A DNA stretch of 64,000 nucleotides from a virus. Shown here piece after piece: positions 4,489 to 49,793 of this stretch (positions are counted from its first letter, which is position 1; the number at the start of each line of letters is the position of its first letter). The notes under the pieces were generated by a model. It was given only the letters and a program-made list of their open reading frames with translations. It made no database searches and had not been told where the DNA came from. The DNA lies in the IMG/VR virus record IMGVR_UViG_3300042291_001557, positions 1 to 64,000 of that record. One strand, written 5' to 3'. Position numbers and translations under genes: made by a program.

Positions 4489-5805
4489 ATGTCAGAACCA
4501 CAAACTAACTGGGAAAACGTTCTTGAGTATCTCCAGCCAAAGATGTCTGACTATTGCCCAGAAGAGCCTTCCCTGCCCCAGAAGGTGTTCCTGAGAACCA
4601 ATGGACTAGAGGCGCTTTTTGGTGGGGCGGCAGGTGGAGGCAAGTCTTCAGCCCTCCTAATGTCTGCCATGCAATTTGTTGACATACCAGCCTATTCAGC
4701 CATTCTCTTCCGCCGTACGTTTGCCGACTTATCTCTCCCTGGAGCCTTGATGGACCGTTTTAAGTCATGGATGTCCAACTATGACGATGTCCATTGGAAC
4801 AACAATAGTTTCGTTGCCACGTTCCCGTCAGGAGCGAGAATCTCCTTTGGTTACCTAAATAATCAGTCTGACTACCTTCGCTACAAGGGTTCGGAATTCC
4901 AGTTTATTGGGATGGACGAAGTCACCGAAATTCGTGAATCTGACTATAGGTATATGTTCTCCCGTCTGCGTCGTCCTGCGACTGGACCGCTTTCTGAGGT
5001 GCCACTTCGCATGAGATGTGCCTCCAACCCCGCCCCCAACTGGGTCAGGCAAAGATTTATCGTGGAAGGAATCTCGGAGGGAAGAATCTTCGTTCCTTCG
5101 AAGCTGACCGACAACCCCGGAATCGACGTAGATTCATACCGTCAAGCCCTGCAGGCCCTCGACCCCATTGAGCGCAGGCGTCTTGAAGAGGGAGACTGGT
5201 GGAGCACCACTCTGGGAAGCCTATTTGAGCGGGAATCTGTTGTTATTATCGACCAATCCGAGGTCCCAACTATCTCAAATACAGCAAAAGTAGTCCGTTT
5301 TTGGGACCTTGCAGCCACCGAGCCAAGCGCCAACAACCCTGACCCCGACTATACGGTAGGCACATTGATGATGTTTGACGAAGGAATTGCCTACGTTATG
5401 GACGTAAAACGGGCAAGGGTCAAGGGTGAAAAGGTTGAGCAATTGATTGCCCAAACAGCCTACGAAGACGGCCTAAATACCCCAATCCTGATGGAAATGG
5501 AGCCTGGCTCTTCAGGAAAGGCTCTAGTGGACCAGTACGCCAGATACGTACTTCCTGGCTACAGTTTTGCTGGGGTGAGGGCAACGGGGGACAAGGTGAC
5601 AAGAGCCCGCCCATTCGCTGCCGCCATGGCCAATGGCAATGTCAGGGTTGTCAGAGGACCATGGCTAACTCACTGGCTTGACGAGTTCTCGTCTTTCCCT
5701 GAGGCTTGCGACCATGACGACCAAGTCGACTCCGCCGTAGGAGCTTTTACACATTTGGCAGGTTTGGGGTTGCAACAGAGAAGAAGAATTGCTATCGTCA
5801 TCTAG
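4489..5805 (+). CDS. terL: Terminase large subunit (ATPase and nuclease)
   Basis: 438 residues. The motor that cuts phage DNA and drives it into the prohead through the portal. The N-terminal ATPase has a Walker A loop GGAAGGGKS at residues 45-53 and a Walker B with catalytic acid, FIGMDEVTEI, near residues 138-147. The C-terminal RNase-H-like nuclease shows an acidic FWDLAATE near residue 270 and HDDQVDSAVGAF near residue 408. Length matches compact terminases. The ribosome site is GGAG about nine bases before the ATG. It opens the rightward block, divergent from the portal. No small-terminase gene is recognised here. Confidence 0.95.
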   Translation: MSEPQTNWENVLEYLQPKMSDYCPEEPSLPQKVFLRTNGLEALFGGAAGGGKSSALLMSAMQFVDIPAYSAILFRRTFADLSLPGALMDRFKSWMSNYDDVHWNNNSFVATFPSGARISFGYLNNQSDYLRYKGSEFQFIGMDEVTEIRESDYRYMFSRLRRPATGPLSEVPLRMRCASNPAPNWVRQRFIVEGISEGRIFVPSKLTDNPGIDVDSYRQALQALDPIERRRLEEGDWWSTTLGSLFERESVVIIDQSEVPTISNTAKVVRFWDLAATEPSANNPDPDYTVGTLMMFDEGIAYVMDVKRARVKGEKVEQLIAQTAYEDGLNTPILMEMEPGSSGKALVDQYARYVLPGYSFAGVRATGDKVTRARPFAAAMANGNVRVVRGPWLTHWLDEFSSFPEACDHDDQVDSAVGAFTHLAGLGLQQRRRIAIVI

Positions 5806-8651: not shown

Positions 8652-8897
8652 CTATGGCTCTATAAAGATGCACTCGCCAGGGCATTCTTCTGCTGACTCA
8701 ATTACGTCATCAAGTCTGTCGTCCGCAAAAGATGCTAAACCGGCTGCGCCTTCTGGGTTTCCCACAGATGAGGCAAATATCTTGTCGCCTTCTTTTACGT
8801 ACGCTAAGCCATCGTCCATCATCGTAAATACATCTGGAGCTATTTCTGCGCACAGGCCATCCCCGGTACATAGGTCTTGGTCAATCCATACTCTCAT
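8652..8897 (-). CDS. 3Fe-4S type ferredoxin, actinobacterial-like
   Basis: 81 residues. A small electron carrier. The order Cys10-x5-Cys16, then Cys72-x3-Cys76 near the end (ECPGECIFIEP), and the opening MRVWIDQDLCTGDGLC closely recall single-cluster ferredoxins of actinobacteria that feed electrons to cytochromes P450 and similar oxygenases. Cys72 followed by Pro is typical, and the x5 spacing suggests a [3Fe-4S] or unusual [4Fe-4S] cluster. No reductase or P450 gene is near. It is probably an acquired host gene (auxiliary metabolic gene). Its start overlaps the upstream gene stop by four bases. Confidence 0.85.
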   Translation of the reverse strand: MRVWIDQDLCTGDGLCAEIAPDVFTMMDDGLAYVKEGDKIFASSVGNPEGAAGLASFADDRLDDVIESAEECPGECIFIEP

Positions 8898-11082: not shown

Positions 11083-11625
11083 GTGCCTGATATAAAGCTA
11101 ATAGGACTAGACCTTTCTCTAACCTCTACCGGCGTATCAATAAATGGAAAAACTTCGATTGTTTCCACTAAGGCCAAGGGCCCTGAAAGACTTTCTTACG
11201 TAAACAAGACATTGCTCCAGATATGCCTAGACGAAGAAATCGACTGCGCCATCATTGAGGGCTACTCGTTTGCGTCACGCAACTCACAAGCCCATAGTAT
11301 TGGGGAGCTTGGTGGGTGCATTAGGATGACCTTCTGGGAATGCGGGATTGCCTACGTAGAGGTCCCCCCAACCTCCAGAGCTAAATTTGCTACTGGAAAA
11401 GGCAACGCAGGAAAGACTGAAGTCATATCTGCAATCTCTTCCAAAACAGGCATGGTTTTTTCTGGCTCTGGTGCAGATGATGAATGCGATGCGTGGATTC
11501 TTGAACAGATGGGGCTTGCATATTTAGGAAAAAGCCAATACGATTGGACGGCAACACAACTCTCTTCTCTAGAAAAGATAGATTGGTCGTCGATGGATAA
11601 TACAAAGGATTCAAGTGAAAAATAG
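11083..11625 (+). CDS. RuvC-like Holliday junction resolvase
   Basis: 180 residues from a GTG preceded by AGGG. RNase-H-fold resolvase that would cut branched DNA before packaging. The acidic site is visible: Asp10 in IGLDLSLTSTG, Glu59 in CAIIEGYSF, and the acidic cluster Asp132/Asp133/Asp136 in GADDECDAW. The GNAGKTEVI segment with Lys is also typical of RuvC relatives. It heads a tightly overlapped rightward operon that continues to 14772. Confidence 0.85.
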   Translation: MPDIKLIGLDLSLTSTGVSINGKTSIVSTKAKGPERLSYVNKTLLQICLDEEIDCAIIEGYSFASRNSQAHSIGELGGCIRMTFWECGIAYVEVPPTSRAKFATGKGNAGKTEVISAISSKTGMVFSGSGADDECDAWILEQMGLAYLGKSQYDWTATQLSSLEKIDWSSMDNTKDSSEK

Positions 11626-11956
11626 AAACCAGCCAATTAGTCAAGTTGATATTGAGAACGAACTTCTTCGCTTATTAGGAATGCTCGAAGAAGAAACAGA
11701 AGCCTTCGAGGTTCTTGCTATAGACAACGCCAAGAAAGAAGCACTTCACAAATCAAACTGGGCCAAAGAATATCTTTCAGCAAAAGGCTCAATCAAGGAA
11801 CGCGAAGCATGGGCCGACTACAAGTTGGACGAATCTTCGTTTGATTACAAAATCTCCGAAGCTCTTGTTAAATCAAAAAGAGAAAAACTACTGTCTCTAC
11901 GAACATCGGTAGATGCAATGAGAACGCTTAACGCTAACGTAAGGCATCAAGTATGA
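11615..11956 (+). CDS. Unknown coiled-coil protein
   Basis: 113 residues from a GTG overlapping the resolvase stop by 11 bases, with AAGGAT upstream. Predicted almost all helix, rich in Glu, Lys, Ala and Leu (ELLRLLGMLEEETEAFEVLA; SKREKLLSLRTSVDAMRTL). No enzyme motif. Actinophages often carry such a small helical protein beside RuvC or recombination genes, and a DNA-associated role is plausible but unproven. It overlaps the next gene by ATGA. Confidence 0.7.
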   Translation: MKNRNQPISQVDIENELLRLLGMLEEETEAFEVLAIDNAKKEALHKSNWAKEYLSAKGSIKEREAWADYKLDESSFDYKISEALVKSKREKLLSLRTSVDAMRTLNANVRHQV

Positions 11957-12759
11957 GCAATGGTATTCATCCGTCACTTATAGGAATGGCTGTTGATATC
12001 AACACGCTTCTCCCACTTGAGAAGAACCCAAGAGTTGGGGACGTTGATGCTATTACTGCTTCCTATGCCGAGTTTGGACAAGTCAAGCCAATCGTTGCCA
12101 AAAGAAATGACGACGGAACAGCGACCGTCATTGCTGGTAACCACCAACTAGAAGCCGCCAAGATTCTTGGCTGGGACCAGATTGCTGTTATCTATCTCGA
12201 AGGTGACGACTCTCGCGCCGTTGCGTTTGCGCTTGCCGACAATAGAACAGTTGAGCTTGGTTACTCTGAGCCAGAAATTCTTTACGAACTAATCAGTTCT
12301 GTCAGTGAAGACTACCCAGAACTTTTAGAAGGACTCGGTTGGGATGAATTTGAGATTGCTGAATACGAGCAAGAGGCTTACAGAAACAGCAGCGAGATGT
12401 CAACTAGCGGAAGTTATGTTCCGCCAGTACTAATCGATAGAAACACAGAGATTCAAGGCTTTGACGATGTCCCTGAATTGCGTCCACAGGAGTTCACTGT
12501 CACTAGGGATAGCGAAGGTGAGAAAAGAATCGTTGCGCCTTCGTCATCTGACCAAAACGACATAGCTGTTCGTGGTTCCACAATGGCTGCAGGTGCAGCA
12601 CAACAAGCCGTGGTTCAGTTCACGCTCGTTTTTGATAACCCTGCCCAACAGTCTCGTTGGTACGACTTTATCCGCTGGCTAAGAAGCGATGTTTCGATTG
12701 TTGGTAACACAACCGCAGAACGGTTAATGGACTTCATCGGTCAGCACTCGGAGATTTGA
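11953..12759 (+). CDS. ParB/sulfiredoxin-like domain protein
   Basis: 268 residues. Residues 10-110 match the ParB N-terminal (ParB/Srx) fold: LLPLEKNPRVGDVDAITASY, FGQVKPIVAK, then the VIAGNHQLEAAKILGW motif that stands where ParB has G-x-H-R-x-x-A. It lacks the helix-turn-helix of true partition ParB. The C-terminal 90 residues, with QQAVVQFTLVFDNPAQQSRWYDFIRWLR, look like a separate conserved domain seen in phage ParB-like proteins. It sits two genes before a PAPS-reductase-like protein, an association that recalls IbrB-IbrA pairs. ATGA-coupled on both sides. Confidence 0.8.
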   Translation: MSNGIHPSLIGMAVDINTLLPLEKNPRVGDVDAITASYAEFGQVKPIVAKRNDDGTATVIAGNHQLEAAKILGWDQIAVIYLEGDDSRAVAFALADNRTVELGYSEPEILYELISSVSEDYPELLEGLGWDEFEIAEYEQEAYRNSSEMSTSGSYVPPVLIDRNTEIQGFDDVPELRPQEFTVTRDSEGEKRIVAPSSSDQNDIAVRGSTMAAGAAQQAVVQFTLVFDNPAQQSRWYDFIRWLRSDVSIVGNTTAERLMDFIGQHSEI

Positions 12760-12980
12760 TGAGTCTCTGGTCGTGGGTTTTAGGAACTCTTGGAGTTACT
12801 GGTCTATTGATTGCCGGCAACAGGGTTTGGTGGGGTTGGTTAATAAACTTTGCCAATGAAATTCTCTGGGTTGTCTATGCAGTCAAAACAAAGCAGTACG
12901 GCTTTATTCTGATGGCTGCCGCATACGCTTTGGTTTACGCAAGAAACGCTAGAAATAGCTGGAAATACAATGAGTCCTGA
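12759..12980 (+). CDS. Small membrane protein with two or three TM segments
   Basis: 73 residues from the ATG at 12759, which overlaps the upstream stop (TGATG). Hydrophobic segments at about residues 3-20 (WSWVLGTLGVTGLLIAG) and 25-62 (WGWLINFANEILWVVYAV ... FILMAAAYALVYARN) span the membrane, followed by a basic end. The Trp-x-x-W-x-x-x-N pattern faintly recalls a half PnuC-type transporter unit, as seen in small phage membrane proteins. Function unknown. Confidence 0.7.
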   Translation: MSLWSWVLGTLGVTGLLIAGNRVWWGWLINFANEILWVVYAVKTKQYGFILMAAAYALVYARNARNSWKYNES

Positions 12981-13089
12981 AGAAGTAATTGAACTTGAAA
13001 AACTAATAGCCGAGCGTGATGAACTACGTCGCATCGTGGATGAACTACGTGCCGAGGTTAGTCGGCTCTCACAGATTGCAAAATACTAA
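12970..13089 (+). CDS. 39-residue coiled-coil mini-protein
   Basis: ATG at 12970 (overlapping the membrane protein stop) to TAA at 13087-13089, which itself overlaps the ATG of the next gene (TAATG). The product has a clean heptad pattern of Leu/Ile with charged residues (VIELEKLIAERDELRRIVD, then ELRAEVSRLSQ), a parallel coiled coil. Coupling on both sides in a gapless operon supports a real gene despite its size. It could multimerise or bind the neighbouring ParB or PAPS-reductase-like protein. Confidence 0.6.
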   Translation: MSPEEVIELEKLIAERDELRRIVDELRAEVSRLSQIAKY

Positions 13090-14228
13090 TGACTAGACAA
13101 AGAATGTTTCTTGACATGAGTTGCATTGATGCAGCCCGCCAAAGAATAAGGCACGTATACGACACGTTTGACACGGTGTGCGTTCAGTTCTCTGGAGGCA
13201 AAGACTCCTCTGCTGTCATGTATCTTGCCAAAGAAGTTCACGAAGAACGCGGCCTCGGTCCTGTAAAAGTCATCTTCAGAGACGAAGAAATGGTGAGCCC
13301 CAAGACGATTGAGTATGTTGAGAAAGTTCGTAACTACGACTGGGTTGACATGGAGTGGTATTGTCTTCCTTACCCAGCAGAGATATGGGTTCTTGGTCAA
13401 AGAGTAACTACGGTGCTCTGGAGCAACATGCGAAAGAACCAAGGACGACTTGTAAGAGACATACCGCCTTGGGCTATCACTGGGGAAGACTTTGGACTAA
13501 CCCACGACGTTTCTCTTCCAGAACAAACCGACTACTACACCATGCAAGGCAAGAAAGGAAACGTTGCCTTTATTACCGGTGTCAGGGCGAGCGAGTCAAT
13601 GGTCCGCTATAGGTCGTGCGTTCAGAAGCTTCACGAGAACTACATCGTTACTCCTTACAAACTTAAAACTGGAATTCCGATGAAGTTTGCCAAAGTGATT
13701 TATGACTGGAATACAAATGACGTATTCAAGTTTCTAATCGAAGAGCATGGGTCCGAGTACTGCGAGTACTACGACCTCGCTGCACAGACACAAAGCAATA
13801 CAAGAATCGGTATCCCTCTTCACAGCATTGCAATTCGCAGAATTGGTGACGTAGTCGCTACGGAGCCGGAGTTCTACGACAGGCTTGTTGAGTGCTTCCC
13901 ACACATAGACGCTCAGCGTAGATGGTGGCCTGAGTTTGATATTGAAAAACTCATAAATGAATACTCCGGGCTTGGCCTAGAGGGTGCTTCAATGTTTATT
14001 GAGGACTACCTTGTTGGCGAGCGCAGGCAAATGGAAGCGAAGGCATACGTGTCCAAGTTTCGCAAAAAACATTTGGAAGACCAGCGTGGATACCCAATCA
14101 GTCTTCTAATTAGAACCCTTGTCCTAAATGAGATAGATGGTGGTTCACCTTCACCAGTTGGACCAGGGACCAGGGCCTACACAGTAAGAAACAATGACGA
14201 AGAAATGGATGCAACTTATGAAGTATGA
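13089..14228 (+). CDS. PAPS-reductase-like (ATP pyrophosphatase fold) protein, IbrA-like
   Basis: 379 residues. The N-terminal domain has the PP-loop signature VQFSGGKDSSAVMYLA near residues 31-46, which binds ATP or an adenylylated substrate in PAPS reductases, DndC and tRNA thiolases. FRDEEMVSPKTIEYVEKV follows, and a FITGVRASESMVR segment matches the conserved G-x-R-x-x-E/D of the family. The full sulfate-assimilation reductase end (ECGLH) is missing, so sulfite production is unlikely. Encoded between two ParB-like proteins, it resembles IbrA/DndC-like phage proteins. A nucleotide or DNA-modifying role is inference. Confidence 0.8.
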   Translation: MTRQRMFLDMSCIDAARQRIRHVYDTFDTVCVQFSGGKDSSAVMYLAKEVHEERGLGPVKVIFRDEEMVSPKTIEYVEKVRNYDWVDMEWYCLPYPAEIWVLGQRVTTVLWSNMRKNQGRLVRDIPPWAITGEDFGLTHDVSLPEQTDYYTMQGKKGNVAFITGVRASESMVRYRSCVQKLHENYIVTPYKLKTGIPMKFAKVIYDWNTNDVFKFLIEEHGSEYCEYYDLAAQTQSNTRIGIPLHSIAIRRIGDVVATEPEFYDRLVECFPHIDAQRRWWPEFDIEKLINEYSGLGLEGASMFIEDYLVGERRQMEAKAYVSKFRKKHLEDQRGYPISLLIRTLVLNEIDGGSPSPVGPGTRAYTVRNNDEEMDATYEV

Positions 14229-14772
14229 AATAGAGGAAGTTGACCCATCAACGCTAGTTGTTCCATCATGGAGGGCGACCTACATACTGAGACCGGACCT
14301 TTTAGTTCTTTCTGCATCACTTACCGATTTTGGCTTTATCCAACCAATCCATGTTTCTTCAAGGACTGGAGAAATCATCGACGGCTCTGAACGTTATTTA
14401 CTGGCTACAAACGTAAAGCAAATAATGGACATAGTCGGAAGAACAATCCCGGTCATAAAGCACGACATTGGAACCATGGAAGCAATGGAAATGCATCTTC
14501 GCCTCAATAGGGGGCGAGGTTCGGTGGTTGCCAAACCAATGTCTTCGATAATTAAAAAACTCGTTAGGTCTAGGGCCGCCACCCAAAAGAGCCTGGAAAG
14601 AACGCTGTGCATGAAGGGCAATGAATATTCTTTAATGATTGACGGAACAATACTGAAGTCAAGAAATATTAAGGAATATACCTACTCAAGAGCATGGGTT
14701 CCGGTTGAGGCTCCTCCAGGAACTCTTGACAAGGGGCCAGCAATAGAGTCCCCACCAAACAGCGACAGATAG
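14218..14772 (+). CDS. Second ParB/sulfiredoxin-like protein
   Basis: 184 residues from the ATG at 14218, which overlaps the upstream stop and has GGATG seven bases before it; ATG 14194 is the alternative. The ParB N-terminal fold is visible: VDPSTLVVPSWRATYILRP, ASLTDFGFIQPIHV, then EIIDGSERYLLAT in place of G-x-H-R. It also has the MHLRLNRGRGSVVAKPM segment common to phage ParB-like partners of PAPS-reductase-like proteins. The C-terminal 70 residues are basic. It is the last gene of this operon. Confidence 0.75.
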   Translation: MKYEIEEVDPSTLVVPSWRATYILRPDLLVLSASLTDFGFIQPIHVSSRTGEIIDGSERYLLATNVKQIMDIVGRTIPVIKHDIGTMEAMEMHLRLNRGRGSVVAKPMSSIIKKLVRSRAATQKSLERTLCMKGNEYSLMIDGTILKSRNIKEYTYSRAWVPVEAPPGTLDKGPAIESPPNSDR

Positions 14773-38198: not shown

Positions 38199-38417
38199 AT
38201 GCGTGAACAAATAGGCAAAAACCAAAAATCTAGTCCTACTGACTTTTTAAAATCAGATACAGAATTTGCGCCGACTACACTTCAACGCGAGCGTTACTCA
38301 ATCTGCAAGGAATGCCCAGAACTTACGAAAGTTACAAAGCAATGCAAGCAATGTGGTTGTTTTATGAACTTAAAAGTGAAGCTTGGTCATGCAGTCTGCC
38401 CACTAGGTAAGTGGTGA
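38199..38417 (+). CDS. Small Cys-rich zinc-binding-like protein
   Basis: 72 residues. Six Cys in a zinc-ribbon-like spacing: SICKECPEL (C-x2-C), then KQCKQCGCF and HAVCPLGKW at the end. Similar short proteins occur beside tail genes in T4-like cyanophages; their role is not known to me. It closes the rightward block and its last 15 bases overlap the end of the leftward glycosyltransferase gene. Confidence 0.65.
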   Translation: MREQIGKNQKSSPTDFLKSDTEFAPTTLQRERYSICKECPELTKVTKQCKQCGCFMNLKVKLGHAVCPLGKW

Positions 38418-39473
38418 TTTCAGCTCGTAGAAACCTTTGCCCCACAAAGTCATAAGGCGAGTGAAGTACTTTTCATAGAGAAGCGCATTTGTTTCCAAGC
38501 CGAACCTATCGACCGCATACTCACGAATGGCCTTGCGGTCCAAGCTCGGTGCCGCAACTGCTGCGTCAATGAATTCCTGCAATGTCCTGCAGCGAAAGCC
38601 GTTGACCCCATGAACTACGTTTTCGGGAAAAGCGCCCCAATCGGTTGTGATAACCGGAGTGCCACAGGCCATCGCCTCAGCCACAACTAAACCAAAAGGC
38701 TCGGTGTAAATAGTTGGCACAAATGAGGCAATTGCCCCACCCATGAGCCTTGCTCGCTCTTCGGTTCCAACCACCCCAACATACTCTCCGTAAGCAGGCG
38801 GAGTTCCCTGTCCAGCGACCACCAGACGCTTCCCAAGGGCCTTACAGACGTCTGCGGCTATCTGATAGCCCTTTCGCTCTATAAGGCGTCCTATGAACAA
38901 ATAGTAGTCATCTGGGGTTTCCCTGAATGGGAAGTCATTGATGTCCACATGGCCCGGAATTACGTCGTCATAGAACTGCCCGTCTACGTCATGTGGGTTG
39001 GTGACCGCTGCTCCGTAGCAGACATGCATCCATGCGTAGGACTCAAAAACCTTGTATTTGGCAAAGATGCCACCATAGCCAACCTCAAACTCCACGGTCA
39101 TATTGTTGGGAAAGGCGTCGGCTACTCCCTTGTGTGCCAGCCCGCCAATAACGCAAATAAAGTCTTTTGGTTGGATTCTTTTACCTATCTCGGCAATGAT
39201 GTTCTTATTCATATTCTGCCAATGGGGCAAGGAATAGTCAAAAGAGGCGAGAGTGTAGTGGTTCCCGTTTAAGGACTGAAGACGCTCTTCTTCGGTGATG
39301 CACATAACGTGCTCAGTGCAGGGGGCTTCATTAAACTCCCCGCTGTACAAGAAAACTTCATGACTCAAAGACGTCATCATTATTGCAAACTTACGGACAT
39401 TCTCCGTAAACGCACATGACGTAAATTCTTTTGTCGTATTTGTGTGGGGGAGGCTAATTAGGTGAAATCTCAT
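38403..39473 (-). CDS. GT4-type (GT-B fold) glycosyltransferase
   Basis: 356 residues. The C-terminal half carries family-4 signatures: YYLFIGRLIERKGYQIA, RLVVAGQG, then FVPTIYTEPFGLVVAEAMACGTPVI with the conserved Glu pair (E-x7-E), and the usual NVVHGVNGF end. It would move a sugar from a nucleotide-sugar to an acceptor. With a second transferase and three oxygenase genes upstream it may decorate hydroxylated virion proteins, or alter host surface glycans. That link is inference. Overlaps the convergent 72-aa gene by 15 bases. Confidence 0.85.
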   Translation of the reverse strand: MRFHLISLPHTNTTKEFTSCAFTENVRKFAIMMTSLSHEVFLYSGEFNEAPCTEHVMCITEEERLQSLNGNHYTLASFDYSLPHWQNMNKNIIAEIGKRIQPKDFICVIGGLAHKGVADAFPNNMTVEFEVGYGGIFAKYKVFESYAWMHVCYGAAVTNPHDVDGQFYDDVIPGHVDINDFPFRETPDDYYLFIGRLIERKGYQIAADVCKALGKRLVVAGQGTPPAYGEYVGVVGTEERARLMGGAIASFVPTIYTEPFGLVVAEAMACGTPVITTDWGAFPENVVHGVNGFRCRTLQEFIDAAVAAPSLDRKAIREYAVDRFGLETNALLYEKYFTRLMTLWGKGFYELKSPLT

Positions 39474-39498
39474 TTATGACCTCGATTAAACATTTCTA

Positions 39499-40185
39499 TC
39501 ACGGCATTAGAACTGATGATTTGAAATGCCCGACTTTAACCGCAGTGTCAACAACCGCATCAAAACCTGCATCTTTGGCTCTTTTAAACATTGCCGTATC
39601 TTCTGAAGTGACTATTCTCTTCATTACCCTTCCGTCGCTCGTTATGGTTTCTTCTTCTGCGTCGGCAAAATATGGGTTGTGGATGTTCTCGAAGACGCCC
39701 TGCTTGAAGCATACAAACCCAAAGCCGGCAGCATCTATGTTTACGTACTTTACGCTGGTGTTAAAATCTTCCATCTTTGCAAACCTGTAATCAAATATTG
39801 AGGCTTCCGAATCGTTGGCTGTTTCTTCCAAAATCTGCTGAGGGCTCTTCTTCACGACAACAGACAGGCTTCCGTCGCCCCTAATTACATAAATTCCACT
39901 AGTAATCGTGTGTGGAGATTCAATAAGCGAACAAAAATCAGACACAGACCATTCGATGTCGCTATCTATCCAGAACATGTGGGTGTAGTCAGGGTGCTCA
40001 GTGAGGGCGCGAAATGCCAACTTGTCACGCAGTTGACCAACATGGGCTCCGCTTTCGTGAAGAAAGCTTAGTTCTATATTGTTTTGCGAACAGTATTTAA
40101 CCGTGTCAAAAAAAGACCTTACATAACATGGGGAAAATTCTCGGGCAGGAGTGACGATAACGACATTCCTATTGCTCTGAATCAT
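39499..40185 (-). CDS. Putative GT-A fold glycosyltransferase (DxD type)
   Basis: 228 residues. The N-terminus VIVTPAREFSPCYVRSFFDT, a helix, HVGQLRDKLAFRALTEH, then THMFWIDSDIEW with the DxD metal site, recall GT-A transferases of the Anp1/GT62-like group found in phages and giant viruses. The C-terminal VTSEDTAMFKRAKDAGFDAVVDTAVKVGHF includes the usual ED...H end. Lies between the GT4 enzyme and an oxygenase, and overlaps the oxygenase stop by 17 bases, so the three are likely co-expressed. Confidence 0.75.
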   Translation of the reverse strand: MIQSNRNVVIVTPAREFSPCYVRSFFDTVKYCSQNNIELSFLHESGAHVGQLRDKLAFRALTEHPDYTHMFWIDSDIEWSVSDFCSLIESPHTITSGIYVIRGDGSLSVVVKKSPQQILEETANDSEASIFDYRFAKMEDFNTSVKYVNIDAAGFGFVCFKQGVFENIHNPYFADAEEETITSDGRVMKRIVTSEDTAMFKRAKDAGFDAVVDTAVKVGHFKSSVLMP

Positions 40186-40954
40186 CTGTCAAATCTTTGC
40201 TTTGGGCTTCCGTCCATGTGAACTCGGTTTTTGGTTCCTCAAACACTTCGTGGTTAATAGTATTTACTGGCGTGTCGTCAGTATTTTCCTCAAAGTCCAA
40301 ACTCGTCGTGACAAAACAGCTAATTATCCACTTGTCCGAAGAATAAGGGACCAATCCCATGTGTGGGTGAGTCCAACTTGTAGGAAACAAAACAATTTTA
40401 CCGATTTCCGCATCGACAGAACAATCATGAATTCTAAAACTTGTCCCCCCGCCATCGGTAACGGTATTTAGGTAGACGACGACAGCTAAAACTCTTGTGT
40501 GGTTTTTGCCGTTTTCGTCCGGCCTTGGATAGTCCCATGGTAAACCGTCGACATGCTCTCTATAGAAACCGTCATTTTTAAAGTACCTCTGAATTCTTAA
40601 TCCAGTAATGTCCAGATTCGGGACAGACCAGAATTGTGGAAACATTTGGATGTAATCATTTATGCACGACCATATGCGCGCATAGAGGTACTCACTGACT
40701 GCCGCATACTGGTGGTAATACTTGGTGGAATCAACCGTGTATATATTTGGGTCCATCAACCCAGTGTCCATACAGCGTTTAATGCCTGTATTCACGCCAC
40801 CTATAGTCGGCCCCTGAGTAAAAAAGCCAACGTTTAAAAAATCTTCCAAAAGGTTAGACACTAAAGATTCACATCTTTCTGCATCTAGAGCCTCCTTGTA
40901 TTCGGCTATATATGAATATTTTCCAAGAGGAAAAGATGCTTTGGTTAATCCCAT
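40169..40954 (-). CDS. 2-oxoglutarate/Fe(II) dioxygenase, prolyl-4-hydroxylase-like
   Basis: 261 residues from the ATG at 40954 with AAAGGA nine bases upstream; an upstream in-frame start at 40990 lies inside the next gene. The double-stranded beta-helix iron site is visible: His and Asp in FYREHVDGLPWDY, the distal His in SWTHPHMGLVPYSSDKWIISCF, which also supplies the 2-oxoglutarate-binding basic residue. RVLAVVVYLNTVTDGGGTSF is the conserved strand of P4H-type enzymes. It could hydroxylate Pro, Lys or Asn in virion proteins. This enzyme has no counterpart in the other cassette. Confidence 0.85.
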   Translation of the reverse strand: MGLTKASFPLGKYSYIAEYKEALDAERCESLVSNLLEDFLNVGFFTQGPTIGGVNTGIKRCMDTGLMDPNIYTVDSTKYYHQYAAVSEYLYARIWSCINDYIQMFPQFWSVPNLDITGLRIQRYFKNDGFYREHVDGLPWDYPRPDENGKNHTRVLAVVVYLNTVTDGGGTSFRIHDCSVDAEIGKIVLFPTSWTHPHMGLVPYSSDKWIISCFVTTSLDFEENTDDTPVNTINHEVFEEPKTEFTWTEAQSKDLTDDSEQ

Positions 40955-41724
40955 TTGCGTTGTTCCTTTCTGTATTTGCCCCTGCGCCAACTAGGGAGAA
41001 GAGGAATTGGTCCACCAAAACCTCTTTCGTAAATAAGCTTAAATACGTTCTCGTCACCAACGTGCATTTTTGAAACATTATCAGAACGTTTAAAAAAAGT
41101 CATTTGGGCAATAGGGGTCCCCTGAGGAATGTAGAACTCTTTGTCCGTCAACACGTTTAAAATTATATTGACCGTATGGTAATAATCCGTGTTTATTACT
41201 CCCGGGATTACGTCAAACTCGGGCCTTGGATTAAGAAGCGAACCAGTCAGAATGCTTGAATATCCTTTTGGCGTCATAAAGCAAAACGGATTCCCAAGCT
41301 TTATGTATTGCCCTTCGCCAACAGATGGGTTTCTTCTTTCCGTAAACGGACAGTCCCCTGTTTGTTTTCTTTCAAAATGCTGTATTGAGCCCATAATTTT
41401 TATGTTTTTTCTGTCGACATTAAACTCAGACTGAATGTCAATACCATTGGGATGAGGCCTTACTCGTAGGTCGGCCCACAATGGGATGGTCACACCGTTA
41501 TGCATCAGGTCTTGTCCGCCAGGGCAATACCTATAACCGTCCTCTAGAGGGGTTTTGGTCGTCCAGTCGTCTTTGGAGAACTTGTTCATGTAGGGCATAA
41601 TATCTTCATCGCCTAACAACCTATTGTCTTCTGCGGTTATTAATATTTCCCCTGGCTTCAACTTGGGTAACTGGTTTACCCTGGATACGCCATCTAGATA
41701 AACAACATTTTTAGAAGATTTCAT
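40945..41724 (-). CDS. Halogenase-coupled protein, dUTPase-like C-terminal pattern (copy B)
   Basis: 259 residues from the ATG at 41724, which overlaps the halogenase stop by 14 bases. A paralogue lies in the same place after the other halogenase (50916-51710). Shared parts: LKPGEILITAEDNRL/VKPGQIRFTPMDNRL, GVTIPLWADLRV, TGDCPFTERR, and PGVINTDYYHTVNIILNVL with QGTPIAQMTFFKR. The last two resemble motifs III and IV of the trimeric dUTPase/dCTP deaminase fold, but the motif III Asp is Asn here, so dUTPase activity is unlikely. A structural or substrate-presenting partner of the halogenase is inferred. Confidence 0.7.
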   Translation of the reverse strand: MKSSKNVVYLDGVSRVNQLPKLKPGEILITAEDNRLLGDEDIMPYMNKFSKDDWTTKTPLEDGYRYCPGGQDLMHNGVTIPLWADLRVRPHPNGIDIQSEFNVDRKNIKIMGSIQHFERKQTGDCPFTERRNPSVGEGQYIKLGNPFCFMTPKGYSSILTGSLLNPRPEFDVIPGVINTDYYHTVNIILNVLTDKEFYIPQGTPIAQMTFFKRSDNVSKMHVGDENVFKLIYERGFGGPIPLLPSWRRGKYRKEQRKWD

Positions 41725-43147
41725 GGTGGTATACGGTTTCAAGGTTCATGTTTGATTGTCTTATTTCGGAGAGACTAGATGAAGCATAGTGCCGATTCTG
41801 ATAATAATCAAGAGACCGAGAACATGATTCCTTTGTTATCAAACCCTGCCCTTGCGCCACATGCCAGAAGTGCGCTATCTGAAAAAGTTCATATCCACTC
41901 TGAGGGACGTCATTGGTGGAAGGGGGCCTTTCTGACCACAACTCTAAGAGCTCGGAAAGCAAAGGGGACCTTGGGGCACTTGCTGCGTCTTTCCAGAAAC
42001 TGGTATCCCTTCTGTCCGATATGTAATGCATGCTCACCATGGCTATGAGGTTCTCGTGAAAACTTTCCATAATCGAATTGTACTTTCGGGAAAGAGACGT
42101 AGAGCCGGGTTTGAAAAATGGAATAAAACTAGATAGCGCCTTAGCCTGCTGAATTGCCGTAGAAATACTCGTAGCCTCAAGTGGCTCCATAAAAGAACTG
42201 CTCAACCCAATGGCAACACAGTTGTTTACCCACTGCTTACTGGTGTACCCAGGATTAAACTTTATAACTCTTGGCTTATCGAGAACATGACCAGTGACTT
42301 GTTCTATCTCTTTTATTGCTTGCTCTTCGTCTAGATGACCAGATGAGAAGACGTAACCATTCCCACGTCTTTCCTGGGTAGGAATCTCCCACATCCAACC
42401 AGACGACATGGCGATAGCCCTGGTGTACTGCCTTATCAGACCGTTCGGGTCAGGTTTTGTCGGGAAAGGTATAGCCGTATCCGTAAGTAAATATCGTGAT
42501 GCATCCACCCATTTGGCTTCGTCAAAATTCTTAATTAGGAACTTTGAAAACCCCGAAGCGTCTATCCAGAAATCAGAATAATATGTTTCTGAATTTGACG
42601 CAACCGACTGTATGTACCCGGTTTCATCAATCAAAGAAGAGACTAAGTCATCTATGAAAATCTTTATATTTTTCCTGGAACAAATTTTTTGAAGATAATG
42701 ATTCAGCTTAAATGTGTCAAAATGATATTGATTTGTGTTTCTATGGATATGTTCTGATTTGACTACTTTTGTTTCAATAAACCCAGGATGAGTTATTGTG
42801 TTGGTGAGCAGCTTGCCTTGCTCATGAATGTATTCATACAGAGGTATGTTTTCATTTTTAATAAAATAACCACTAATACTGTGAAAATAATCAGGAGTGT
42901 GATTGGTCCATTTCTCAAACCGAATACCAAGTTTGTGCGTAGCGGCAGTTTCCCTGACCATCTCATCAATGTCTATTCCTGCTATTTCAACAAAGCTATG
43001 CCAATGCTCCGTACTACCTTCGCCAACTCCAATTATGCCAATAGTTTTTGACTCAATAATTGAAACGTCAAGCAAGGGAAGCTTGCTTTTTAGAACTATC
43101 GCCGCAACAAGACCAGCAGTCCCTGCCCCTACAACCATAACCTTCAT
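41711..43147 (-). CDS. Flavin-dependent tryptophan-halogenase-like enzyme (copy B)
   Basis: 478 residues. The family uses FADH2, O2 and halide to halogenate aromatic rings. Seen: Rossmann FAD loop VVGAGTAGL near residues 5-14, GVGEGSTEHW, the catalytic Lys72 in ATHKLGIRF at the PrnA Lys79 position, the FYSDFWIDASGFSK-type segment, GWMWEIPTQERRG matching the W-x-W-x-I-P signature, and SSFMEPLEATS holding the Glu of the EPLES motif (Ser is replaced by Ala). Length is near the usual 500-540. AGGT lies five bases before the ATG. It follows the oxygenase gene by three bases. Viral relatives are known in cyanophages. Substrate unknown. Confidence 0.9.
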   Translation of the reverse strand: MKVMVVGAGTAGLVAAIVLKSKLPLLDVSIIESKTIGIIGVGEGSTEHWHSFVEIAGIDIDEMVRETAATHKLGIRFEKWTNHTPDYFHSISGYFIKNENIPLYEYIHEQGKLLTNTITHPGFIETKVVKSEHIHRNTNQYHFDTFKLNHYLQKICSRKNIKIFIDDLVSSLIDETGYIQSVASNSETYYSDFWIDASGFSKFLIKNFDEAKWVDASRYLLTDTAIPFPTKPDPNGLIRQYTRAIAMSSGWMWEIPTQERRGNGYVFSSGHLDEEQAIKEIEQVTGHVLDKPRVIKFNPGYTSKQWVNNCVAIGLSSSFMEPLEATSISTAIQQAKALSSFIPFFKPGSTSLSRKYNSIMESFHENLIAMVSMHYISDRRDTSFWKDAASAPRSPLLSELLELWSERPPSTNDVPQSGYELFQIAHFWHVAQGQGLITKESCSRSLDYYQNRHYASSSLSEIRQSNMNLETVYHHEIF

Positions 43148-43150
43148 GAG

Positions 43151-43777
43151 CTACCTAAGCCATGTTACGAAGGCATACTTGATGCCAAAATTGTTTTCCT
43201 CTACGGGGTGAGCTGTATGTCTATACAAATAGTTTGACGGAAACAAAACCATAGAACCAGCAGAGGGAGAAACCTTTATGCCGAAATAATCAAACTCCAA
43301 TTCGCCTCCGTTGAAGTCGTCATTAAACCACCCGACACAGCTAAGAATGCGACCATTTTCCGAGCCGTAATCACAATGAGAACTGTATTCTCCACCGCTT
43401 GGGTATTTTAATACTCTGTATCCTTCGTCGGTAGACAGCTCAAGGCTGTACTTATCACGATAATGATAAACCGCTGCGTCTATGTTCTTGAATATTTTTT
43501 TCCAGAGTACTGCTGCCGGTTTCATTCTTGGAATATTTTCTATTTTGTTAGCTTGCAGGGGGTTCAACTCCATTTGTACAGACATTCTGTACGATGAAAT
43601 TTTACCGTTGTCAGTTTCTGAATTTTCCCACATCAAGTATGGCCAGTCTTCTTTTGACTCAGATTCAATAAGTTCTATGATGTTTTCAGGTGAAAATATG
43701 TTTTTGTACATAATTACGCCAGGGGCCAACTCTACTATTTCTGAGCTTTCTATAATTTCGTTAACAGACATCATCAT
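43151..43777 (-). CDS. 2OG/Fe(II) oxygenase, P4H-like (cassette B)
   Basis: 208 residues. Iron ligands in SSHCDYGSENGR (H-x-D) and the distal His in YRHTAHPVEENN, plus FGIKYAFVTWL carrying the basic residue for 2-oxoglutarate. The GGELEFDYFGIKVSPSAGSMVLFPSN strand set is typical of prolyl-4-hydroxylase/PKHD-like enzymes. It is paralogous to the gene at 53224-53805, and in both cassettes lies just upstream of the halogenase, so halogenation and hydroxylation may act on the same protein. It overlaps the gene before it by 17 bases. Confidence 0.85.
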   Translation of the reverse strand: MMMSVNEIIESSEIVELAPGVIMYKNIFSPENIIELIESESKEDWPYLMWENSETDNGKISSYRMSVQMELNPLQANKIENIPRMKPAAVLWKKIFKNIDAAVYHYRDKYSLELSTDEGYRVLKYPSGGEYSSHCDYGSENGRILSCVGWFNDDFNGGELEFDYFGIKVSPSAGSMVLFPSNYLYRHTAHPVEENNFGIKYAFVTWLR

Positions 43778-44204
43778 TTACCGTAAAATCAAAAGTGTGA
43801 ATAATCTTATCTTTATACCAAACGCAAATAGCACAATCTCCCGGCGCACCAAAATTAAGCCCAAAATGAATAGAATGCCTATTTATTTTTTTTACATCTA
43901 GAAATCTGTGCCCATTTGGCTCTCCCACAATGTAGAGAAAAAGACTAATTTTTACATCATCATCAAATACGAGAAATTCGTTTTTGTAATCAATCCGAAT
44001 TAATTGATTTACCTTGACAGGAGAATGAGAAAACTTTATTGAATGCTCTGTTGGGATAGAAATCGGACGAGGGGTGTCTCTGTCAAAAATCAAATCTTTG
44101 GTTCTCTCGTTGTCGCCGATAAGTATGGGGGCGACGTGGAGTCTAGATAATTCCTCTGCTGTGGGAAGCATTTCTTCTGTTGGACAAAAAATTACTGTAT
44201 CCAT
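43761..44204 (-). CDS. Small beta-rich protein of unknown role (cassette B)
   Basis: 147 residues from the ATG at 44204; an earlier TTG at 44216 is possible. The first 80 residues hold RPISIPTEHSIKFS and VNQLIRIDYKNEFLVFDDD, the rest is strand-rich: FLDVKKINRHSIHFGLNFGAPGDCAICVWYKDKI. It corresponds in place, size and end pattern to the 138-aa gene at 53802-54218 (both have VRQVHSLRFRSRYVSLGNW- or INRHSIHFGLNFG-like segments). Not recognised as a known family. Its stop overlaps the oxygenase start. Confidence 0.6.
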   Translation of the reverse strand: MDTVIFCPTEEMLPTAEELSRLHVAPILIGDNERTKDLIFDRDTPRPISIPTEHSIKFSHSPVKVNQLIRIDYKNEFLVFDDDVKISLFLYIVGEPNGHRFLDVKKINRHSIHFGLNFGAPGDCAICVWYKDKIIHTFDFTVNDDVC

Positions 44205-44230
44205 AAATAGACACAATAGCAGTTAATTCT

Positions 44231-44479
44231 TTATTCCGCCTGAAGTCGAGCAAGGCTGGCCCGTGTAGTCTTTATTCCTACAACCAACATTCGGAAATGA
44301 GTTGAATACATATAAGACTCGCCGTCTTCAGGAACTTCAAAAGTATCCATGTCTACGGTGAGAGGGTCTATCCCTGACTGTATGCAAGTTGTGAAAAAAT
44401 TAGAGTACGCGGTCTCTAGCGCTTTGGTAAGGAGATTTACTGTTTCTTCTGTCGTTATTTCGTCTCTTAGTTCTGGCAT
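44231..44479 (-). CDS. Small helical protein (cassette B)
   Basis: 82 residues with GAGGA before the ATG. Helical: ITTEETVNLLTKALETAYSNFFTTC, then GIDPLTVDMDTFEVPEDGESY and a last helix. It matches in size and order (a DP-x-T-x-D segment in the middle, final helix) the 75-aa gene at 54215-54442. It lies between the giant adhesin-like gene and the small beta-rich gene. Unknown function; a chaperone for the adhesin is a guess. Confidence 0.6.
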   Translation of the reverse strand: MPELRDEITTEETVNLLTKALETAYSNFFTTCIQSGIDPLTVDMDTFEVPEDGESYMYSTHFRMLVVGIKTTRASLARLQAE

Positions 44480-44488
44480 TTTTCCTCT

Positions 44489-46618
44489 TTAAGCGTTAAT
44501 TATTATTTTTGTACTAGAAGACAAGGATTGAGTAAGCCCCCATGAATCAGTAACAACAATTATACCGCCTTCTAGGCCGGTAGAACCAGCGTTACCCATG
44601 GTCCCCGCTAGACCATTGGTGCCAGCATTGGGTGCTCCATTGGTTCCGGGGTTCCCAGGGTTGCCTGCACCACCAACCGTTCCTGCGTTACCGGCAGCTC
44701 CAGGATTTCCTGCTGCGCCTCCGTGTCCAGTTCCGTTATTCCCATGATTACCTGCTACGCCGGCGTTGCCGGCAGTTCCATGGTTCCCTGCTGTTCCTGC
44801 TGCGCCGTTATGCCCATGACCATTTGTACCAGAATTACCGGCTGCGCCACCATAACTGGTCGCAACAGCATTCTGCCCGTAGTGGGTGTTATGGTTATGC
44901 CCTGCACCGTGTCCGTTGAATTCATTATGTCCTAAACCTATGAAAAAGTGGTTGACGTTTGCTGGGTTTGCGCCACGAGGCCATGTTCTGTTTGCGGGTG
45001 CACCAGTATAGTGAAAAGCATGTTCGGTCGAGTTTCTCCATGAATGTCTAGGAAAATGTGCACTGTTTGATTCGTTAGCAGGGCGACCACCGGAACCACC
45101 AAATGTTCTCATATGACTATAACCTGAGACATGGAACGCATGGGCGTTGGAAGCAGCATTGGGGTTTCCTGCCTGCGAGACATACTGGTAATAAGTGTCA
45201 TTTACTCCCGCATTGCCAGCTGCACCTGCAGTGGCCCCAGTTCCGTTAGCGGCCCCCGTTCCTGCTGTTCCATTTGTTCCTGCGTTGGCTACTCCAGGGT
45301 TTGCTCCGCCTGCGGTGGCACCGCTTCCGCCGTGGCCTCCAGTTCCTACGTTTCCGGGGTTTCCTGCATTGCCTGGGACGAGAGTTCCCACAACTCCGGC
45401 CCCACCGGACGTAGCACCAGTCCCTGCAATCCCAGGATTACCTGACGCACCTGCAGTTCCATGAGAACCAACCCCGCCAGGTTGTCCAACATTAACAACA
45501 GAGCCAGAGCCAGAAATATATTTAGCCACAATCAAAACAACGGGTCCTCCTCTTCCTCCCGTGCCACTTACTCCAGGGTTTCCTGCGTTGCCTGCGGCTC
45601 CAACAGTTCCAGCGTTGCCCGCTAAACCTGCCGCACCAAAATGTCCTGCGTTGGGCGCACCACTGTTTCCTGGGTTACCTGCATTGCCTGCGTTTCCTGC
45701 CGTACCGGCATTTCCTGCTGCACCCGCGTGTCCAGTTCCGCCATGTCCTGTTCCGTTGGTTCCTGGATTGCCATGGTTTCCTGCAGTGCCTGCGTTCCCT
45801 GCTGCACCATTGTTGCCGTGGTTTCCGGCGTGCCCATAACCATAAAGACCATAAGAATTGTGTGTGTTGCCGTGGTTCGAACCAGACGGAATGTGTATTC
45901 CACCAGCAGTAGCTCCCGTTCCTGCCGCTCCTGGGTTGGCCCCACCAGCACCTCCTGCGGTAGCTCCACTTCCTCCGTGCCCACCAGTACCGTTACTGCC
46001 ACCTGTTCCTGGGTTTCCTGCATTTGCTACTCCAGCTCCTCCAGCACCACCAAGGTTTGCTCCAGTTCCAGCAATTCCAGGATTGCCTCCCGTGCCAGGA
46101 TTTCCTGCAACCCCTGGAACTAGGGTTCCTGGATTTCCTAGCGTGCCACTGGTTGCACCACTTCCATCTGCACCCTTGTCGCCACCAGAAAGCACACGAA
46201 TCGAACCAGCATTATCTACAAAATAACCACGAATTGATTTTTCCAAATCATTCAGTGTTGCCAGGTCGATTGGATTAGCTGAAGTCTGACTCAAGCTGTA
46301 AGTAACAATAGAAGCAGCCCCACCAGCCACTGTTCCTGACGGGATTAAGGACGTATGCGAAAGAGTGGCTCCGATGGTTCCGTTGTTGGTTAAGGTCCCT
46401 TTAACAAAGACTCGAAAGCCGTTTGTGATTACAGTGCAACCGCTGTTGACCGTTAGGTTTTCGTAGTACATGTCTCTGGACAAAACAGTTGGAGTTCCAG
46501 TGTTTGAAACAATTACAGTTCCGTCTGTCCCTTGTCCATACACAGAGTCGTTTCCAAGTCTCTGTGTGTACTCTTTAGATTCCGTACCAGGTCTAAACCT
46601 GACAACTCCAATTCCCAT
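44489..46618 (-). CDS. Giant Gly-X-Y repetitive adhesin-like protein (cassette B)
   Basis: 709 residues. Residues 1-140 are shared with the 536-aa protein of the other cassette: (T)QRLGND(S/D)(V/I)YGQGTDG, DMYYENLTVNSG, NG(F/Y)RVFVK. Residues 150-480 and 600-690 are runs of glycine every third position with Asn, Ala, Thr, His and Pro (GNAGTAGNHGNPGTNG type), which fits collagen or polyglycine-II helix bundles as in T-even gp38 adhesins. Residues 480-600 hold a non-repetitive His/Trp/Tyr/Asn-rich part. It ends with GGIIVVTDSW and KIIINA. The likely role is receptor binding. It is a candidate substrate of the oxygenase and halogenase next to it. Confidence 0.75.
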   Translation of the reverse strand: MGIGVVRFRPGTESKEYTQRLGNDSVYGQGTDGTVIVSNTGTPTVLSRDMYYENLTVNSGCTVITNGFRVFVKGTLTNNGTIGATLSHTSLIPSGTVAGGAASIVTYSLSQTSANPIDLATLNDLEKSIRGYFVDNAGSIRVLSGGDKGADGSGATSGTLGNPGTLVPGVAGNPGTGGNPGIAGTGANLGGAGGAGVANAGNPGTGGSNGTGGHGGSGATAGGAGGANPGAAGTGATAGGIHIPSGSNHGNTHNSYGLYGYGHAGNHGNNGAAGNAGTAGNHGNPGTNGTGHGGTGHAGAAGNAGTAGNAGNAGNPGNSGAPNAGHFGAAGLAGNAGTVGAAGNAGNPGVSGTGGRGGPVVLIVAKYISGSGSVVNVGQPGGVGSHGTAGASGNPGIAGTGATSGGAGVVGTLVPGNAGNPGNVGTGGHGGSGATAGGANPGVANAGTNGTAGTGAANGTGATAGAAGNAGVNDTYYQYVSQAGNPNAASNAHAFHVSGYSHMRTFGGSGGRPANESNSAHFPRHSWRNSTEHAFHYTGAPANRTWPRGANPANVNHFFIGLGHNEFNGHGAGHNHNTHYGQNAVATSYGGAAGNSGTNGHGHNGAAGTAGNHGTAGNAGVAGNHGNNGTGHGGAAGNPGAAGNAGTVGGAGNPGNPGTNGAPNAGTNGLAGTMGNAGSTGLEGGIIVVTDSWGLTQSLSSSTKIIINA

Positions 46619-46620
46619 TG

Positions 46621-47355
46621 TTATACCAACTGCATGTAGTTATAAGTACCAGTATTCGCTCCGGTTACATCTGTAGAGACATTGCTCGGCAAGGAAGAAC
46701 CGCTAGAAATAACAAGAATTACTCCGCCGCCGCCAGGAGAGGTTGCTGGTGCCGCAATTTTAGCATTCACGGATACTGCTGTAGAAACAATGTAGCGAGC
46801 AGCGATTATTACTACTCCTCCGCCTGCCTGCCCTGTTCCGCCTGCTCCACCGCGAAGAAAAGTTGGTCCACCAGACGCTGTAATCGAATATCCGCGAATT
46901 GCTTGAATTGGCTGTTTGTAGTACTCAACCCCACCCATGGCGGCAGTTGGTGGCGTAGCGGTGTAAGTAGCCAAAGCGTTCCCGCCGAGACTATGGGTTA
47001 CTGAAGTAGCAGCGGCTCCGCCTTGCTCTATGGAGCCTGCAGTCGAAAACCCAGTCGTGTAACCGATTACTGAAGCCTCGCCAAGACTTAGCTGTCCCTT
47101 TACCAATATCCTGTAACCAGCCGGGTCTAGACGAATAGACGTATCGATAGATAATGAATCAAGAAACAAGTCTCTGGTCATTGTAAAAACAGAAGAAGAA
47201 TAAGTTAACCCAAGAGAAGCAGAGTACGTTCCTCCACTCCCAGACGTTGTTGACAGAACTGCAGCACCATCGGCCCCTGTTCCGTAAATGGAATCAGGAG
47301 CGTCAATGAAAGCCGAGAAGGCCGTCAACACTGGATATCTTGATACTCCGGCCAT
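46621..47355 (-). CDS. Gly-rich tail/adhesin protein, paralogue pair (cassette B)
   Basis: 244 residues. Highly similar along its length to the 235-aa gene at 56063-56770: MAGV(S/A)RYP at the start, IYGTGADG, GYRILVKGQL, SGGPTFLRGGAGG, GGGVVIIAARYI and the identical end NYMQLV. It shares the first-domain style of the giant Gly-X-Y proteins directly downstream, so it may be a shortened relative. The GGAGGTGQAGGG segment suggests a short polyglycine-II part. Presumed virion surface protein. Confidence 0.7.
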   Translation of the reverse strand: MAGVSRYPVLTAFSAFIDAPDSIYGTGADGAAVLSTTSGSGGTYSASLGLTYSSSVFTMTRDLFLDSLSIDTSIRLDPAGYRILVKGQLSLGEASVIGYTTGFSTAGSIEQGGAAATSVTHSLGGNALATYTATPPTAAMGGVEYYKQPIQAIRGYSITASGGPTFLRGGAGGTGQAGGGVVIIAARYIVSTAVSVNAKIAAPATSPGGGGVILVISSGSSLPSNVSTDVTGANTGTYNYMQLV

Positions 47356-47357
47356 GA

Positions 47358-47693
47358 CTAAAGGGTGTAGCCGTTTACCGTTACCGTAATAGCGGCATTC
47401 TCACTGACAAAATAAATAATGTCGTCTAGGGCTAGAGAAGTGTTCGTGTTGTAAGTAATCGTCTCTTTAGGGGAAACGCTCATTTGTGACAAGATTCTTT
47501 GCGCAGCAACATCGCTGGATACGGTATTAGCGGCGACACCTACTGTTATCCAGTATGCGGTACTTGCGCTTGTGTTGCAGATGATTATCTGCTTTACTAC
47601 TCCGGCAGCCGTGGCTGTATAGGCACCTGTAGCCCCAGAACTAAAAGTTGTAACGGTGGCCTTGGGACCGAACCGATAAGGAACTACTGACAT
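47358..47693 (-). CDS. Small beta-sandwich-like tail protein (cassette B)
   Basis: 111 residues, related to the 124-aa gene at 56770-57144 and more distantly to the 101-aa gene at 60148-60453. Shared pattern: a strand-rich core with VVKQIIICNTSAS / VVKQIILTNTTSA / VVTSIVIANTAG, and a C-terminal VTVNGYTL- or ISGMEIA-like strand. Such small sandwich proteins occur beside fibre genes of T4-like cyanophages. Probably a virion component. Spacing to both neighbours is under three bases or overlapping. Confidence 0.7.
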   Translation of the reverse strand: MSVVPYRFGPKATVTTFSSGATGAYTATAAGVVKQIIICNTSASTAYWITVGVAANTVSSDVAAQRILSQMSVSPKETITYNTNTSLALDDIIYFVSENAAITVTVNGYTL

Positions 47694-47933: not shown

Positions 47934-47963
47934 GCCTGCAATTATACCCTGAACTGATTGAGG
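47934..47963 (-). promoter_or_regulatory. Conserved TATAAT element before cassette B
   Basis: On the minus strand the sequence CAATCAGTTCAGGGTATAATT stands 10-30 bases upstream of the ATG at 47933. An almost identical copy precedes the ATG at 49317. The TATAAT is a perfect -10 box; I see no good -35, so extended recognition (the conserved AATCAGTTC) is possible. This marks the likely start of transcription for cassette B. Confidence 0.55.
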
Positions 47964-48024
47964 GGAACCATAAGAAACAAGGTGGCAATATAATGCCAAT
48001 TGAAGAAATCAAAAACTATGGTCG

Positions 48025-48291: not shown

Positions 48292-48300
48292 AATATCTCC

Positions 48301-49347: not shown

Positions 49348-49350
49348 GGC

Positions 49351-49792: not shown

Positions 49793-49793
49793 T

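Follow-up and report, generated by a model that had tools for sequence, protein, structure and literature searches.

What does a PP-loop enzyme of the 3'-phosphoadenosine 5'-phosphosulfate (PAPS)-reductase/IbrA family do when it is encoded between two proteins of the ParB fold? The question is raised by a locus of an uncultured phage, located in bases 1-64000 (the 64,000-nucleotide stretch analysed here, hereafter the window) of the 100,256-base IMG/VR virus record IMGVR_UViG_3300042291_001557. Five overlapping open reading frames (ORFs) on the + strand, at positions 11953-14772, successively encode a first ParB-like protein (ParB1), a 74-amino-acid membrane protein, a 39-amino-acid coiled coil, a PP-loop protein of 379 amino acids and a second ParB-like protein (ParB2). 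A preliminary description had proposed that a PP-loop protein with a SGGKDS motif lies between two ParB-like proteins coupled by overlaps, and the five ORFs, their domain matches and their overlaps are all confirmed. IbrA/IbrB-like genes are common in phages, in which they are labelled only as "co-activator" or "PAPS reductase". The answer developed below is that the PP-loop protein, ParB1 and ParB2 (hereafter the trio) may form one functional unit for the chemical modification of a substrate; the phage's own DNA, late in infection, is the most likely target, and we give this proposal an even chance of being right.

Conservation of the Trio

Loci were gathered via the PP-loop protein alone, so that the occurrence of ParB neighbours constitutes an independent observation, and the trio proteins were detected by three hidden Markov models (HMMs), 121 loci with enough flanking sequence being evaluable. 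On the same strand, ParB1 occurs upstream of the enzyme in 114 of these loci and ParB2 downstream in 116, and the order of the trio is kept in 114 of the 121. Inside this enzyme family the triple with two ParB-like partners, previously supposed to be less common, is thus the rule. Complete trios occur at 154 loci, which group into 55 clusters when the enzymes are compared at 85% identity (many loci inside a cluster are near copies), and originate from Actinobacteria, Bacillus, Rhizobium and environmental phages. The carriers include Arthrobacter Laroyevirus, Mycobacterium B3 phages, M. abscessus prophages, Bacillus phage 022DV001, Rhizobium phages and one Nocardia genome. The search in other phages, which had been recommended as a check, shows that the trio is widely conserved, a module and not an oddity. 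Searches of reference phages with the full-length enzyme and with ParB2 match 74 records in either case, an agreement in counts and taxa and not record by record. Literature searches, with most subscription journals outside their coverage, brought up no paper describing the trio or the alternating transferases considered below.

The enzyme is devoid of both ParB neighbours at five loci, four of which are found on contigs that are fragments of 15-41 kb. The sole long contig with a lone enzyme (L179, 105 kb) contains ParB1 and ParB2 elsewhere in the record, tens of kilobases off. A scan of bacterial genomes yielded at least two close members of the enzyme family, from Nocardia and Kribbella, and among the matches listed the family looks rare in bacteria and virus-borne. 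Single-sequence viral scans with the Bacillus and Rhizobium proteins retrieved none or two loci; alignment-based scans worked. With respect to selection, the rates of nonsynonymous (dN) and synonymous (dS) substitution of the trio proteins against the relative L021 amount to 0.074 vs 1.73, 0.028 vs 1.70 and 0.039 vs 1.15, respectively. Since dN lies far below a dS near saturation, all three proteins are under strong purifying selection.

The PP-Loop Enzyme

The central protein matches PF01507 (1.5e-10) and phrog_2302 (7e-75), and its best match in BFVD is named COG3969. The best PDB folds for its AlphaFold model (predicted local distance difference test, pLDDT, 88.8) are human flavin adenine dinucleotide (FAD) synthase (8ron, 6e-7) and CysH (6vpu, 7.5e-7), followed by CysD, TtuA and TilS. 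These two nearest solved folds exhibit ~13-15% identity to the enzyme, which differs from them by an extra C-terminal helical region, and a DW...YC..YD motif is common to the enzyme and FAD synthase. Over 51 enzyme representatives, R19, D28, the SGGKDS box, D65, E67, W111, R115, G164, R166, E169, S170 and R173 are invariant, as well as D206, W207, D211, Y228 and R239. C225 is present in 49 of the 51, no other cysteine exceeds 60%, and the FAD synthase sequence also has a cysteine in the motif aligned with C225. Adenylation of the substrate would be the most economical chemistry for a protein of this fold family, because the solved structures closest to it belong to PP-loop enzymes which use ATP (FAD synthase, CysH and TilS among them), and the enzyme lacks sulfur-transfer cysteines. 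An assimilatory reductase of PAPS or adenosine 5'-phosphosulfate, i.e., CysH itself, is rejected since the catalytic ECGLH motif is absent from the window enzyme sequence; the alignment contains no conserved cysteine near the C-terminus.

Phosphorothioation, which had been put forward as an example of the DNA modification to be looked for, has to be weighed against the same residues. A DndC/SspD-like enzyme could make phosphorothioate DNA by using a borrowed host desulfurase. DndC, SspD and BrxP share with the trio enzyme the PP-loop ATPase core with its N-terminal SGGKDS, a weak HMM similarity links the enzyme to DndC and BrxP, and the ParB-family protein DndB is found in Dnd systems (PMC10853773). 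However, DndC is described (PMC10853773) as having a cysteine dyad in addition to three 4Fe-4S cysteines, neither of which is conserved among the 51 representatives, whose single near-invariant cysteine C225 stands where FAD synthase has one too. The window enzyme reaches 19 bits with the DndC model TIGR03183, for a cutoff of 290.4, and DndD has no match in the window's contig, which may be incomplete. A search for DndE gave no match in the contig, nor in the controls. Discarded as first choice on account of the cysteines, the DndC score and the lack of a DndD match in the contig, phosphorothioation is judged very improbable, and adenylation is retained as the putative chemistry of the enzyme.

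The Two ParB-Fold Proteins

ParB folds bind nucleotides and DNA, and ParB-fold proteins are DNA clamps gated by cytidine triphosphate (CTP); by analogy, the binding of nucleotides and DNA is the putative property of both ParB proteins of the trio. ParB1 matches PF02195 (E 9e-6) and, over residues 13-264, phrog_723 (2e-36). Its N-domain resembles the Noc/ParB structures by profile (1.8e-16), N25, G62 and N97 are invariant, and its conserved C-terminal domain bears no Pfam name. ParB2 matches PF02195 with 0.045 only, but phrog_2159 with 9e-22. Among PDB structures, Noc/ParB comes closest to its AlphaFold model (mean pLDDT 85.5; 7e-7), the structural likeness extending from the N-domain to the adjacent helical region. 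Its invariant residues consist of P51, G64, R67, P86, N105, E144 and W168. In contrast to the Noc/ParB CTPases, the GERR box is replaced by GNHx in ParB1 and GxxR in ParB2, and the trio is not a partition locus. Partition of plasmids or chromosomes of the ParABS type is rejected, no match for a ParA-type ATPase (PF13614) occurring in the window's contig.

In the window's clade, the histidine of the GxHR box of ParB2 is replaced (SER, NER, HER), and a role as a His-dependent kinase comparable to sulfiredoxin or SerK was dropped for this reason. The C-terminal tail E-x-PPN-x-DR, conserved throughout the same clade, is perhaps a docking tail. The protein gp114 of Rhizobium phage RHph_I4 (L093 4001-4699), annotated as "DNA methyltransferase", matches ParB_N (PF02195, 3e-9); it is a second ParB1 and the annotation is likely a mistake.

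Position Beside the Terminase Genes

A large terminase is encoded shortly downstream of the trio in 10 of the 10 loci checked, and these terminases span several Pfam families (Terminase_6N, Terminase_3, TerL_ATPase/TerL_nuclease, with a weak T7-type match in L131). The linkage also occurs in annotated Arthrobacter, Mycobacterium B3 and M. abscessus phages and is not universal, as the Rhizobium phages carry the trio in another region. In the window's clade, the trio is located between a RuvC-like gene and head-tail genes, and the RuvC-like family (phrog_159) is found upstream of the trio in 17 clusters. A conserved HNH-like gene (CxxC...H-x-EDY...CxxCHxxxH), possibly a partner nuclease or a homing endonuclease, occurs near the trio in most non-window clusters (L106, L114, L117-L122, L131-L142, L173).

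Such a position could be that of an anti-defence or terminase-accessory complex, in which ParB clamps would load on the phage DNA and protect or mark the packaging ends with no covalent change of the bases. The conserved place beside terminases of several families, the HNH gene nearby and the CTP-gated clamping generally known for ParB-fold proteins are consistent with it, but it leaves the PP-loop enzyme and the methyl- or acetyltransferases without a role, which makes it unlikely. An auxiliary metabolic function, with sulfate or nucleotide metabolites as substrates of the enzyme and with ParB-fold proteins that are nucleoside triphosphatases (NTPases) or small-molecule kinases, would account for the PAPS-reductase annotation and for the presence of sulfiredoxin, SbnI and free serine kinase among the distant ParB-fold matches. 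It is quite improbable, however, taking into account the lack of an ECGLH-type catalytic cysteine motif, the loss of the GxHR histidine in ParB2 of the window's clade and a terminase linkage which is unexpected for a metabolic gene.

Alternating Transferases and Proposed Mechanism

Accessory genes were surveyed in the 29 clusters outside the window's clade. A methyltransferase dependent on S-adenosylmethionine (SAM; phrog_11826) occurs in 11 clusters and a GNAT acetyltransferase in 14, which together make 25 of the 29, placed either inside the trio operon or adjoining the trio. No cluster possesses both, for 5.3 expected if the two were independent (hypergeometric P = 4e-5, not corrected for shared ancestry). 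On the maximum-likelihood tree of the enzyme, the methyl/acetyl label switches 8 times or more, and well supported branches make at least 5 of these switches unavoidable. Opposite genes are found even between sisters (L003 methyl and L104 acetyl, L136 methyl and L138 acetyl). This repeated replacement in one slot suggests that the methyltransferase and the acetyltransferase do equivalent jobs. Neither of them adjoins the trio in the window's clade. In Microbacterium phage Hendrix (L091 1619-5167), genes for a glucosyltransferase, a methyltransferase and an N-acyltransferase follow one another up to that of a more distant PAPS-like protein, an arrangement which resembles a further modification cluster.

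Modification of the phage DNA by the trio would proceed as follows. At the expense of ATP, the PP-loop enzyme would adenylate a carbonyl or a phosphate on the substrate. Both ParB-fold proteins, as binders of DNA and/or nucleotide, would position the enzyme or gate it, with ParB2 as the obligatory IbrB-like partner and ParB1 as a further factor conferring specificity. Capping of the activated group by the dedicated SAM methyltransferase or GNAT acetyltransferase would follow in many lineages, and in the window's clade the core would run with no recognisable cap gene. The adenylation chemistry, DNA as the substrate, the capping and the timing before packaging are the parts of this scheme that we infer. 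The comparative evidence argues well for a candidate modification pathway and speaks weakly as to the exact substrate. In this respect the modifying complex imagined in the preliminary description is still plausible and unproven, backed by the conserved trio, the interchangeable transferases and the terminase linkage, its phosphorothioate example excepted. More tentatively, the trio could be the core of an undescribed and widespread phage DNA-modification pathway, in which a PP-loop enzyme guided by both ParB-fold proteins activates a group of the DNA beside the packaging machinery, and in which lineages repeatedly swap the capping methyltransferase for an acetyltransferase, perhaps so as to evade host nucleases able to read the mark.

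Besides the uncorrected exclusivity value, several observations weigh against DNA modification by the trio. Many phages devoid of the enzyme likewise carry relatives of ParB1 (357 vs 125 records). The [DNS]PP[YFWH] motif of DNA amino-methyltransferases is absent from the accessory methyltransferases, whose substrate may for this reason be a small molecule or a protein. In the window's contig, a record which may be incomplete, no cap enzyme was found with phrog_11826, PF00583 (GNAT), PF13847 (Methyltransf_31) or local HMMs.

The second ParB, the usual terminase neighbour and the methyl/acetyl swap turn an orphan annotation into a concrete and testable modification hypothesis. Relatives are carried by cultured phages of Bacillus, Mycobacterium, Arthrobacter and Rhizobium, and the hypothesis can be tested without the uncultured phage of the window. 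Should it hold, phage DNA modification would gain a PP-loop chemistry that is independent of sulfur.

Organization of the Operon and Other Genes of the Contig

The stop codon of ParB1 overlaps ATG 12759 of the membrane protein by 1 nucleotide, that of the coiled coil overlaps ATG 13089 of the PP-loop protein by 1 nucleotide, and the membrane protein and coiled-coil ORFs overlap by 11 nucleotides (12980/12970). The overlap between the PP-loop ORF, ending at 14228, and ParB2 amounts to 35 nucleotides from ATG 14194 or 11 nucleotides from ATG 14218, the latter being more probably the start because most homologues begin there. Both small companions noticed earlier do exist. The membrane protein, present in just 1 of the 9 relatives tested, is not conserved with the trio and has been rejected as a component of the conserved unit, and the coiled coil is partly conserved, in the window's clade only, with similar ORFs at the equivalent place in L153 and L175 and matches of 15-33 amino acids in several relatives. 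The features of the window are collected in Table 1.

Table 1. Coordinates of the trio operon and of other features in the window.
Feature	Position	Strand	Description	Evidence
ParB1	11953..12759	+	ParB/Srx N-domain (GNHQLEAAK, ADNR boxes); conserved C-terminal domain, ~residues 220-265, common to the ParB1 family	Pfam, PHROGs, structure profile, alignment
Small membrane protein	12759..12980	+	74 amino acids, operon passenger	phrog_2421 3e-21
Coiled-coil peptide	12970..13089	+	39 amino acids, DELRAEVSRLSQIAKY	similar ORFs in relatives
PP-loop ATPase	13089..14228	+	PAPS-reductase/IbrA (COG3969) family	SGGKDS 35-40; TGVRASES 163-170; near-invariant Cys C225
ParB2	14194..14772 (likelier start ATG 14218)	+	IbrB-like	phrog_2159 9e-22; AlphaFold model; alignment
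RuvC-like resolvase gene	11083..11625	+	context outside core	phrog_159 3e-37
Large terminase	4489..5805	+	context	PF17289 1.1e-12, PF03237 4.3e-6
2OG-Fe(II) oxygenases	40172-40990, 43154-43777; 53224-53805 (alike by eye)	-		
FAD tryptophan-halogenase-family proteins	41714-43147; 51698-53206 (alike by eye)	-		PF04820 E 9e-99 (41714-43147)
GT4 glycosyltransferase	38406-39473	-		

A small ferredoxin gene (Fer4_15, E 2e-17) occurs upstream of the trio at 8655-8897 on the - strand. The region 38406-56061, also on the - strand, comprises two parallel cassettes with tail-fibre-like genes, 2-oxoglutarate (2OG)-Fe(II) oxygenases and proteins of the FAD tryptophan-halogenase family; halogenases are unusual in phages. 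The same contig encodes a proteasome-subunit-like protein and a WhiB regulator (L094 14620-15258 and 15678-16007; contig 78620-80007), which suggest an actinobacterial host for the phage of the window.

Comparison with Known Systems

The resemblance to IbrB-IbrA, already recognized in the preliminary description, holds over most of the length of the PP-loop protein and ParB2, which are homologous by HMM and alignment to annotated IbrA/IbrB pairs (L089, L090, L092, L196); the ParB2 HMM matches the annotated IbrB of L089 and L092, and the Rhizobium ParB2 is itself annotated as IbrB. In the ibrAB genes of E. coli ECOR-9 and the pairs of Streptococcus and Escherichia phages, a PP-loop protein is likewise followed by a short ParB-fold protein, and the motifs SGGKDS, TGxRxxES and P-x-YDW...D(I/V) are common with the trio enzyme. 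At the four loci above, the enzyme HMM scores 102-142 bits and the ParB2 HMM 106-125 bits, whereas trio enzymes reach ~300-580 bits with the enzyme model and possess the near-invariant C225, which is not found in IbrA-type proteins. The trio is, in addition, preceded by ParB1, for which no adjacent match occurs at the three phage IbrAB loci examined.

In annotations and in the passage of PMC10434257 which cites Sandt et al. 2002, co-activation of prophage gene expression is the only function known for IbrAB. The trio could similarly be a transcription co-activator, the PP-loop protein and ParB2 switching on late genes with ParB1 as an extra DNA-binding factor, as the homology to IbrA/IbrB, the DNA binding of ParB folds and the location of the trio among late genes would allow. 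It is nevertheless a rather unlikely explanation, which fails to account for the conserved PP-loop active site and the alternation of methyl- and acetyltransferases; a biochemical basis for the action of IbrAB was not found in the literature searched. With modification of the phage DNA as the preferred reading, the trio is, from its sequence relationships, a three-component version of the IbrAB kind with ParB1 as the defining addition, its enzymes forming a distinct branch. It also resembles the Dpd system, in which DpdB, a ParB-like NTPase, works with a base-modifying enzyme (PMC12839542), and other base-hypermodification clusters of phages, but the enzyme is of the PP-loop type here and not a tRNA-guanine transglycosylase (TGT).

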